Shown here: positions 6,870 through 7,474 of the stretch, in pieces
Layout: each line of letters opens with the position of its first letter
Position numbering within the stretch: position 1 is the first letter of the stretch
NCBI RefSeq assembly: GCF_029266855.1
Contig: NZ_JAQSWB010000004.1
Span: 248,001 to 312,000 of the forward strand
Direction of reading: 5' to 3'
Source: Fluviicola sp.
GTDB lineage: Bacteria; Bacteroidota; Bacteroidia; Flavobacteriales_D; Crocinitomicaceae
DNA length: 64,000 nucleotides
The notes under the pieces: model-generated
Seen by the model: only the letters and a program-made list of their open reading frames with translations
What the model was told of the DNA's origin: nothing
The model's database searches: none
Position numbers and translations under genes: made by a program

Positions 6870-6942
6870 TGCGGGGTGGAGCAGTTGGTAGCTCGTCGGG
6901 CTCATAACCCGAAGGTCGCACGTTCGAGTCGTGTCCCCGCTA
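6870..6942 (+). tRNA. Initiator tRNA-fMet (CAT)
   Basis: A complete cloverleaf: D arm AGCAGTTGGTAGCT, anticodon arm TCGGG-CTCATAA-CCCGA, T arm with TTCGAGT, and acceptor stem GCGGGG/CCCCGC. Two features mark it as the initiator rather than elongator: three consecutive G-C pairs in the anticodon stem (GGG/CCC) and an unpaired first position (T at 6870 opposite T at 6941). CCA is not encoded. The 3' end of this gene recurs twice downstream (7245-7305 and 7418-7442). Confidence 0.92.
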
Positions 6943-6950
6943 CAAAGAAA

Positions 6951-6978
6951 AGGTTGTCAAGTTTTGACAACCTTTTTT
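6951..6978 (+). terminator. Terminator of tRNA-fMet
   Basis: AGGTTGTCA and TGACAACCT form a 9-bp stem with a short loop, followed by TTTTTT. It begins 9 nt after the tRNA and precedes the GIY-YIG gene, which therefore should not be co-transcribed efficiently with the tRNA. Confidence 0.85.
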
Positions 6979-7001
6979 GTTTTTATAGAAATCCGCTATC
7001 C

Positions 7002-7247
7002 ATGTTTGTTACCTACGTTTTATATTCCCCAGTTCACGATAAAATCTATATTGGTTACACCTCGGATTTAATAGACCGCTTTCGTTCTCACAATCAGTTT
7101 GCAACCAAAGGCCATACAATTAAATTTCGTCCTTGGGAAGTAATTCATATTGAATTCTTCGACTCCAAATCAGAAGCTATGAAGCGTGAGAAAGAATTAA
7201 AGTCTTCGAGAGGAAGGGATTTTATTAGAACTAAAATTTTGCATTAG
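7002..7247 (+). CDS. Small GIY-YIG nuclease
   Basis: An 81-residue single-domain protein of the GIY-YIG superfamily. It has YVLYSPVHDKIYIGYT (the paired GIY/YIG strands), the catalytic-type arginine in DRFRSHN, and the metal-binding glutamate in MKREKELK. These small proteins cut DNA in characterised relatives, but free-standing ones often lack assigned roles. I chose ATG 7002 because the longer upstream frame would have to begin inside the tRNA. The stop codon TAG (7245-7247) coincides with the first bases of the second tRNA-3'-end copy. The gene therefore lies exactly between two copies of the tRNA end, which suggests it belongs to a small mobile unit. Confidence 0.85.
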   Translation: MFVTYVLYSPVHDKIYIGYTSDLIDRFRSHNQFATKGHTIKFRPWEVIHIEFFDSKSEAMKREKELKSSRGRDFIRTKILH

Positions 7248-7305
7248 CTCGTCGGGCTCATATCCGTCAGCTGACGGACGCACGTTCGAGTCGTGTCCCC
7301 GCTAC
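7245..7305 (+). pseudogene. Truncated second copy of tRNA-fMet 3' part
   Basis: TAGCTCGTCGGGCTCATA (7245-7262) repeats 6889-6906, and 7279-7305 repeats the T arm and acceptor end at 6917-6943 without mismatch. Between them the anticodon 3' side and variable region are replaced by a 16-bp perfect palindrome, TCCGTCAGCTGACGGA (7263-7278). The 5' acceptor strand and most of the D arm are missing, so it cannot fold as a tRNA. Confidence 0.85.
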
Positions 7306-7310
7306 TAAGC

Positions 7311-7341
7311 AAAAAGGTCAATCGAAAGATTGGCCTTTTTT
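7311..7341 (+). terminator. Terminator after second tRNA-end copy
   Basis: AAGGTCAATC and GATTGGCCTT form a stem (one G-T pair) with a GAAA loop, followed by a T run. Its sequence differs from the terminator at 6951 although both follow the same tRNA end. Confidence 0.8.
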
Positions 7342-7417
7342 TGTGCATCAATTTTTGACACGACGAGAAGTTTATGCCGACATCATTTTCAAGGAACGTA
7401 GAAAATTATCGTCGGTA

Positions 7418-7442
7418 AGTCGTGTCCCCGCTACAAAGAAAA
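7418..7442 (+). pseudogene. Third copy of the tRNA-fMet 3' end
   Basis: Twenty-five bases identical to 6927-6951: the end of the T arm, the 3' acceptor strand and the first bases downstream of the tRNA. Only the terminal part survives. It lies 76 bp after the second terminator. Confidence 0.8.
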
Positions 7443-7474
7443 AAGCGTAATTACGAAAGTGGTTACACTTTTTT
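7443..7474 (+). terminator. Terminator-like hairpin after third tRNA-end copy
   Basis: AAGCGTAA and TTACACTT can pair with one mismatch and are followed by a T run. It is weaker than the two earlier hairpins but keeps the pattern of tRNA end followed by terminator. Confidence 0.5.

Follow-up and report, generated by a model that had tools for sequence, protein, structure and literature searches.

Small GIY-YIG nuclease units at bacterial tRNA genes, putative mobile elements, viewed from the tRNA-fMet locus of a Fluviicola genome

Integrative elements that enter tRNA genes at the 3' end restore the host tRNA after insertion through a duplicated 3' end, and direct repeats of that end are the classical footprint of such integration. 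In fungal mitochondria, mobile open reading frames (ORFs), or mobile endonuclease elements, are described for atp6, atp9, cox2 and nad3 of Glomus and for atp6 of Allomyces. According to the parts of that report drawn on here, the terminal part of the gene travels with a free-standing endonuclease ORF (of the GIY-YIG type in Glomus atp9) and replaces the resident part; the resident gene end is moved downstream, and the donor segment can be foreign (PMC3630166). In T-even phages, as the excerpts of a second report state, the free-standing GIY-YIG nuclease SegB adjoins tRNA genes and cuts within them, and a 718-bp tRNA-plus-nuclease unit is amplified in tandem, with microhomology between the tRNA 5' end and the nuclease 3' end (PMC13096335). 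Here we analyze a stretch of 64,000 nucleotides from Fluviicola sp. (referred to below as the window), in which a GIY-YIG nuclease gene and partial copies of the initiator tRNA lie behind the tRNA-fMet gene. We consider it likely that this gene was invaded twice by members of a family of very small, homing-type selfish elements of about 0.3-0.4 kb.

As in the fungal elements, so far as the cited parts describe them, a nuclease gene would replace the end of a gene and displace the old end. The fungal hosts are mitochondrial protein genes, whereas the hosts here are bacterial tRNA genes, and the tRNA units have a nuclease of 81 amino acids (aa), a terminator of their own, a palindrome-marked tRNA copy, tandem arrays and a mirror form at tRNA 5' ends. 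With SegB, on the same footing, they share a GIY-YIG nuclease beside a tRNA and tandem tRNA-nuclease units, which makes SegB a precedent for amplification driven by a GIY-YIG nuclease. SegB, however, is phage-borne, and a palindrome-marked pseudo-tRNA is not among the features described in the excerpts cited; the units here lie on chromosomal contigs of Bacteroidota and their neighbours, form clades that track tRNA type, and measure about 0.3-0.4 kb. Like integrative elements, they would restore the host tRNA by a duplicated 3' end; unlike them, they are without an integrase, are far too small, and also occur at tRNA 5' ends. UPF0213 proteins and SLX1 share the GIY-YIG domain and are the best profile matches among solved structures, and to our knowledge these proteins are not known as parts of mobile elements. 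By analogy, the logic of the units appears to match that of the fungal endonuclease elements and SegB, whereas the units stand apart in their host genes, size, palindrome and phylogenetic range. We found no description of a bacterial tRNA/GIY-YIG/palindrome arrangement in the open-licence PubMed Central literature, which is weak evidence of its absence.

Anatomy of the tRNA-fMet locus

An earlier note on this DNA had described an intact initiator tRNA, a terminator, an 81-residue GIY-YIG gene and two further copies of the tRNA 3' part with terminators of their own, and all of these were confirmed at the locus (Table 1). The only full-length tRNA-fMet match in the genome is the intact gene. Copies 1 and 2 share 27 identical bp and copies 1 and 3 share 25 bp, as had been stated; the latter match, the longest exact one between these copies (6927-6951 versus 7418-7442), consists of 17 bp of tRNA and 8 bp of flank. 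The nuclease stop codon TAG (7245-7247) does form the opening three bases of copy 2. A palindrome like TCCGTCAGCTGACGGA, which interrupts copy 2, is also present in further partial copies of tRNA-fMet, where compensatory changes have occurred.

For each of the three hairpins, all 200 shuffled sequences fold less well than the real one (z = -5.1, -5.3 and -6.1), and a terminator scan listed the hairpin at 6946-6978 but neither terminator 2 nor terminator 3. Eight congeners whose tRNA-fMet is nuclease-free have flanks there that share 54-65% identity with the terminator 1 flank, and the 29-nucleotide hairpin-plus-T stretch of terminator 2 recurs behind tRNA-fMet of the congener G088. The spacing unit at the locus is 362 bp. 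Given this spacing, and since further tRNAs of this genome and of others show the layout too, it is more than chance.

The units had been judged too small to hold an integrase; consistent with this, no integrase was found within the window unit, whose sole ORF of at least 50 aa is the nuclease. A group I or group II intron was not found either: tRNA-fMet is uninterrupted, and Rfam intron families were absent at E <= 1 from positions 6500-7800. The 76 bp of other DNA noted before copy 3 are present, and they resemble the T-loop insert of a pseudo-tRNA in another genome (L013; the likeness is looser in L047, L059 and L088). This resemblance makes it probable that copy 3 is a longer pseudo-tRNA interrupted by an insert.

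Several repeats were observed around these features. An insert with an inner hairpin (GCCG..CGGTAAG) occurs in the pseudo-tRNAs of L013, L047, L059 and L088 and at 7355-7417 of the window, as if a second small repeat invaded dead tRNA copies. Upstream of tRNA-fMet, a terminator-like hairpin (6706-6729) resembles terminator 1 and might be a unit remnant on the 5' side of the gene. An inverted repeat, CTCACTCTCACAC..GTGTGAG, follows tRNA terminators of this genus in several cases (window 7479-7510, L098, L103, L105, L106, L110 and L310); in L098, part of the tRNA end and the terminator are repeated behind it with no nuclease. It is seemingly another repeat tied to tRNA ends.

Table 1. Features at the tRNA-fMet locus (window coordinates)
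Feature	Position	Strand	Support
Intact initiator tRNA-fMet (CAT), functional copy; its 3' part is copy 1	6870-6943	+	ARAGORN; Rfam RF00005, 61.9 bits
Terminator 1, putatively arrived with the youngest unit	6946-6978	+	-17.5 kcal/mol, fold z -5.13, hairpin with a T-run; also terminator scan
81-aa single-domain GIY-YIG nuclease ORF, stop inside copy 2	7002-7247	+	PF01541, E 9e-19
Copy 2, left piece, tRNA positions 20-37	7245-7262	+	exact 18-bp identity with 6889-6906
Perfect palindrome TCCGTCAGCTGACGGA replacing tRNA positions 38-47 in copy 2	7263-7278	.	sequence
Copy 2, right piece, tRNA positions 48-74	7279-7305	+	exact 27-bp identity with 6917-6943
Terminator 2, putative remnant of an older unit	7311-7340	+	fold z -5.31
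Putative decayed body of the older unit and/or T-loop insert of copy 3	7341-7417	.	insert likeness; hairpin z -2.89 over 7350-7434
Copy 3, tRNA positions 58-74, putative displaced native end	7418-7434	+	25-bp match; flank identity
Terminator 3, putative native terminator of the locus	7435-7478	+	fold z -6.13; like the hairpin behind tRNA-fMet in G096 and G059

Recurrence at tRNA genes, and occupied and empty sites

Seven genes of the genome match PF01541: two with long frames at tRNA-free loci (L004 and L005) and five small ones, four of which lie behind a tRNA. In three of the five, the domain lies 57-62 bp behind tRNA-fMet, tRNA-Arg TCT and tRNA-Val TAC, the nuclease at tRNA-Val being truncated. 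The fourth lies 317 bp behind tRNA-Ala GGC, where a tRNA copy was not found, and the fifth has an in-frame stop and sits at a locus without a tRNA. At tRNA-Arg, partial tRNA-Arg copies bearing the palindrome TCCGCCGCGGCGGA lie on either side of the nuclease.

To survey other genomes, loci were collected by similarity of the nuclease, not by tRNA, from sets holding one genome per species. Nuclease relatives occurred in 66 of 100 genomes of the same family (its own genome counted), and a profile match was present in 192 of 296 genomes from the phylum with a completeness of 90% or more; part of the matches in these 66 and 192 genomes was fetched and checked for tRNAs. The family set comprised 30 loci and 60 further places, taken roughly by rank, with two long-ORF UvrC-like matches, places covered before and matches of lower rank skipped, and the phylum set 29 new loci and 40 further places, the first 20 having been partly picked for visible tandem neighbours. 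With an alignment of the fMet clade as the query, contigs of named records yielded 467 relatives, of which the best 79 loci were taken. The names among these best 79 are from Bacteroidota, Balneolota and Ignavibacteria/Chlorobiota, except for a few labels of metagenome-assembled genomes (for example, Planktophila or simply 'bacterium'); among them are named strains of Pedobacter (such as Pedobacter helvus), Mucilaginibacter, Niastella and others.

Positions were counted over 243 loci (L004, L005 and L098-L131 excluded), whose 340 GIY-YIG stretches were reduced to 306 by removal of duplicates. An intact same-strand tRNA lay at most 250 bp upstream of 163 of the 306 and just downstream of 23; 81 were further members of arrays, nine had a same-strand tRNA within 1 kb, and 12 were at contig edges. 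The gap from tRNA to nuclease domain had a median of 58 bp. Among the 153 upstream-tRNA cases with at least 120 bp past the stop, 124 had a partial copy of the same tRNA at or just after the nuclease stop, compared with none of 153 in the reversed downstream control, indicating that GIY-YIG homologues do usually lie beside tRNA-end duplications, as the earlier note had anticipated. Host tRNAs were of the types Met (initiator and other), Val, Asn, Asp, Ala, Phe, Ser, Arg, Leu, Gly, Pro and His.

In 20 + 20 loci lacking an upstream tRNA, Rfam at gathering thresholds found tRNAs only and no other host RNA; from this result and further comparison of the loci, a mirror form was recognized. The common form runs from intact tRNA through terminator, nuclease and palindrome-bearing partial tRNA to the next terminator. 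The mirror form runs from a 5' tRNA piece with palindrome through the nuclease to the intact tRNA and duplicates the tRNA 5' end; its nuclease stop can fall in the 5' end of the intact tRNA (L259; other cases are L245, L247, L251 and L154). This form, and the regularity of the palindrome in the partial tRNA copy, go beyond what had been noticed before. In several units, the partial tRNA and palindrome encode the C-terminus of the nuclease. Up to eight units stand head to tail (eight in L241, five in L242 and five in L240), with a median tandem spacing of 364 bp (quartiles 336.5 and 377); arrays were present in 62 of 243 locus-strands, a number inflated by the choice of regions and by some loci occurring twice. 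Decayed units also occur: L006 and L010 are truncated, and L007 has an in-frame stop. The proposal of a self-contained GIY-YIG unit that rebuilds a tRNA end and carries a terminator is supported by these observations, but the units are widespread rather than a local oddity, and close analogues exist.

At tRNA-fMet, the comparison of congeners that had been suggested showed that they do not share the three-copy structure. A nuclease is present in three of 14 genomes of the genus (G000, G046, in tandem, and G070) and absent from the fetched stretch of nine (G030, G059, G088, G096, G010, G100, G102, G103 and G104); in G101 and G080 the contig ends or breaks at tRNA-fMet, leaving these undecidable. 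Occupied and empty alleles thus occur at one site among relatives, and tRNA-Val and tRNA-Arg are likewise mixed. The 62-bp flank of copy 3 shares 94% and 92% identity with the sequence immediately behind tRNA-fMet in G096 and G059, respectively, compared with 56-61% at best for the flanks of copies 1 and 2. The copy 3 flank is also the best match for G030 (70%) and G104 (68%); for G010, G088, G100 and G102, the best-matching window flank is another one or none. Because the copy 3 flank matches the uninvaded flanks of G096 and G059, copy 3 and terminator 3 appear to be the native end, the two proximal ends having come later. A terminal gene segment would accordingly have displaced the native one, as expected of an element of the fungal kind, with the native fMet terminator now standing at copy 3. 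A remnant terminator resembling terminator 1 was found in G102 and G104, and G103, which is near G070 by tRNA variant and upstream flank, is nuclease-free and has kept palindrome-bearing tRNA remnants. In two congeners, a pseudo-tRNA-fMet with two palindromes was observed upstream of the intact tRNA (L101 and L102); fMet footprints thus also lie 5'.

The tRNA-Arg TCT locus could be read in 11 of the 14 genomes, G100, G102 and G046 being too divergent. The intact tRNA-Arg of the window genome is identical to that of G059, G070, G103 and G080, and all five have a palindrome-bearing pseudo-tRNA upstream of the gene. A second allele was found in G030, G096 and G104 and a third in G088, and these four are footprint-free in about 110 bp upstream and 420 bp downstream; the region of G101 begins at a contig edge. 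G010 has the second allele together with a nuclease unit and pseudo copies. In the window genome, both partial tRNA-Arg copies depart from the intact gene in the acceptor stem and the T arm; they agree with the intact tRNA-Arg of G088. For the upstream copy, the difference is shown through the acceptor strand only. The acceptor strand of the upstream partial copy in G010 likewise differs from its intact gene. These sequences are best read as the arrival of a tRNA-Arg of another allele, perhaps by horizontal transfer, with breakage of the resident one. Judged by the foreign donor segment known from fungi, the result is divided: the intact tRNA-Arg of the window genome differs from its partial copies, but in G059, G070 and G103 the footprint and the intact gene start alike, and the fMet copies are identical over 27 bp.

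The tRNA-Val TAC locus, also read in 11 of 14 genomes, is nuclease-free in G096 and G046; G070 (with a tRNA-like remnant) and G103 are nuclease-free but have changed flanks. The unit is present in G088, G059, G030, G101 (by eye) and G080, the window genome has a truncated nuclease, and G010 has a nuclease of another clade.

The nuclease and the palindrome

The window nuclease matches PF01541 with 68 bits (curated cut-off, 22.6) over residues 2-70 of 81. Y5, Y16, G18, R26, H30, N31 and E63 are invariant in 26 aligned sequences; we take Y5, Y16, R26 and E63 to be the catalytic Tyr, Tyr, Arg and Glu of GIY-YIG nucleases. The ratio of nonsynonymous to synonymous substitution (dN/dS) was lower than 1 for every one of the 39 comparable pairs, with a family median of 0.12; the pairs are not independent and include members of a single array and of a tRNA-less clade. 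The nuclease is under purifying selection. The closest solved structures by sequence profile are UPF0213 proteins, followed by SLX1, a structure-specific nuclease by its deposited name. NCBIfam had no family for three members, and PHROGs gave weak matches to homing endonucleases for two of the three.

We then built a tree of 147 short nuclease sequences, which has many unresolved forks and does not include the 79 fMet-clade loci. On it, tRNA identity requires 47 changes over 121 rows (82-96 when shuffled) and host family 40 changes (54-62 when shuffled), so that both traits are clustered. Nucleases of one tRNA type were found in several host families, and a nuclease of another genus was 78% identical, compared with 62% for that of one congener and 79% for that of another. 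A conserved nuclease clade without a same-strand tRNA within 1 kb was also observed (L048, L049, L035 and L064) and may be a settled, non-mobile relative.

These results bear on whether the repeats are scars of integrative elements, left by a tyrosine integrase encoded elsewhere that inserts units at tRNA 3' ends, where such integrases usually attach, with the GIY-YIG gene as a passenger. Direct repeats of the tRNA end, such as the 27 bp common to copies 1 and 2, are what this would leave. From the units and their nucleases, however, we regard it as unlikely: the nuclease is the only sizeable ORF of the window unit and the tandem spacing is a few hundred base pairs; the nuclease is under purifying selection, and its clades follow the identity of the tRNA; in the mirror form it is the 5' end that is duplicated; and the distal copy extends back to about tRNA position 20 and bears a palindrome.

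A palindrome of the form YCC...GGR lies between -60 and +80 of the nuclease stop in 111 of the 153 cases, compared with 0/153 in shuffled and 5/153 in reversed sequences. A junction pattern that fixed the flanking tRNA letters retrieved 65 distinct fMet junctions; nine are intact-type tRNAs with a variant stem, and 55 of the other 56 have the palindrome (the exception being L024). Of the palindromic junctions, 52 were used and gave 27 distinct cores, selected to be 15 or 16 long and to have the ends TC/GA. In these cores, the six outer pairs are Watson-Crick in 161 of 162 cells, and the remaining cell is G-T. Both sides have changed at pairs 3, 5 and 6, indicating that pairing is kept beyond the sequence alone; pairs 1 and 2 were fixed by selection of the cores and carry no weight.

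By these findings, neutral decay is highly improbable. Under it, slippage would have duplicated tRNA genes and a small nuclease gene would have come to lie between the copies by chance, and the truncated and stop-bearing copies would fit such a history. It is contradicted by the recurrence of one arrangement at many tRNA types and in many genera, with 124 of 153 against none in the control, as well as by purifying selection and by a palindrome held at one position in the fMet copies.

Palindromes of the type TCCGYC..GRCGGA also occur elsewhere in the window, with five found (28285, 47881, 60331, 60453 and, in copy 2, 7263) against 0.03 expected. The one at 28285 is imperfect and looks like coding sequence; by eye, many dispersed palindromes are clustered with other palindromes, and some lie in seemingly coding sequence. 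That they are footprints of the element was unsupported, as none of 15 fetched had a tRNA in its 3-kb locus. We also set aside the idea that the palindrome serves solely to kill the tRNA copy; the partial copies already lack one end.

Possible mode of movement and its significance

We propose a unit that consists of a tRNA 3' end, its own terminator, a single-domain GIY-YIG nuclease and a partial tRNA copy interrupted by a palindrome. On insertion, tRNA sequence that adjoins the incoming terminator and nuclease gene would complete the host tRNA, and both the resident 3' end of the tRNA and the terminator behind it would be pushed downstream. At tRNA-fMet, terminator 2 and the decayed body would then represent an old unit, and terminator 1, the nuclease and copy 2 a younger one. 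The nuclease probably breaks the tRNA gene or the palindrome, and the unit would be copied in by repair of the break, or by recombination, for which the two tRNA pieces would serve as homology arms. An equal product would arise from one exchange of a unit, whether circular or linear, with a tRNA 3' end. Because the unit would then complete the tRNA, its random loss should be harmful.

It is a real possibility that the nuclease instead acts by structure-specific amplification, cutting extruded palindromes or recombination intermediates and thereby causing unequal exchange between tRNA copies. The units would then mainly expand in place and spread via ordinary homologous recombination of chromosomal DNA. 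As described in the excerpts cited above, phage SegB drives segmental amplification of tRNA and segB via tRNA microhomology (PMC13096335). The nearest solved relatives are UPF0213 and SLX1, compensatory changes keep the palindrome paired, tandem arrays exist, and phage and plasmid matches are weak, all of which favour such a route. On the other hand, SLX1 works with a partner protein, and both the presence or absence of the unit at the same tRNA in congeners and the spread of tRNA-type clades over several host families point to insertion into new genomes. The likelihoods of amplification and of mobile, homing-type units overlap, because the two differ in mechanism and not in anatomy.

Several observations weigh against mobile, homing-type units. 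The comparison is across species and not strains. A separate DNA-binding or sequence-reading domain was not found in the nuclease, which is a bare catalytic domain, whereas free-standing homing endonucleases recognize their sites through a separate DNA-binding domain; with nearest relatives that are structure-specific, the fit to classical homing is poor. A homing endonuclease would be expected to cut the empty allele at or close to the insertion site and to leave the occupied one resistant. The intact tRNA-fMet is identical in the window genome and in unit-free relatives, and since occupied and empty loci have the same tRNA, a nuclease reading the tRNA alone would cut its own host. Of the 306 stretches, 18 had no same-strand tRNA within 1 kb, and 29 of the 153 cases had no detectable tRNA copy. 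Allele exchange is not shown by footprints alone, since in G059, G070 and G103 the start of the tRNA-Arg footprint is like that of the intact gene. At the resolution of the tree, clustering is not clear for four tRNA types, Ala, Met/Ile2, Phe and Arg ACG. The YCC...GGR palindrome was also present in 22 of 145 far-flank control stretches, and the genome holds 98 dispersed TCCGYC..GRCGGA palindromes against two in the reversed control. With the window protein as the only query, a phage collection returned six weak Listeria phage records (41-44% identity over at most 78% of the query) and a plasmid collection one weak match (33%); a convincing carrier was not found in these collections, and IMG/VR was not searched.

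With these points weighed, we consider it about as likely as not that the units are self-contained bacterial mobile elements of about 315-390 bp in tRNA genes of Bacteroidota, Balneolota and Ignavibacteria/Chlorobiota. They would combine an SLX1-like nuclease with palindrome-interrupted tRNA copies as homology arms and would make themselves indispensable by repeatedly replacing essential tRNAs, the initiator included, with foreign or element-borne versions. If mobile, they would rank with the smallest known mobile elements that are autonomous, and would have a hold on essential tRNA genes. They would account for odd pseudo-tRNAs and tandem tRNA ends across a large bacterial group, and would be a bacterial counterpart of the fungal mitochondrial endonuclease elements and a route for the exchange of essential tRNA genes between species.

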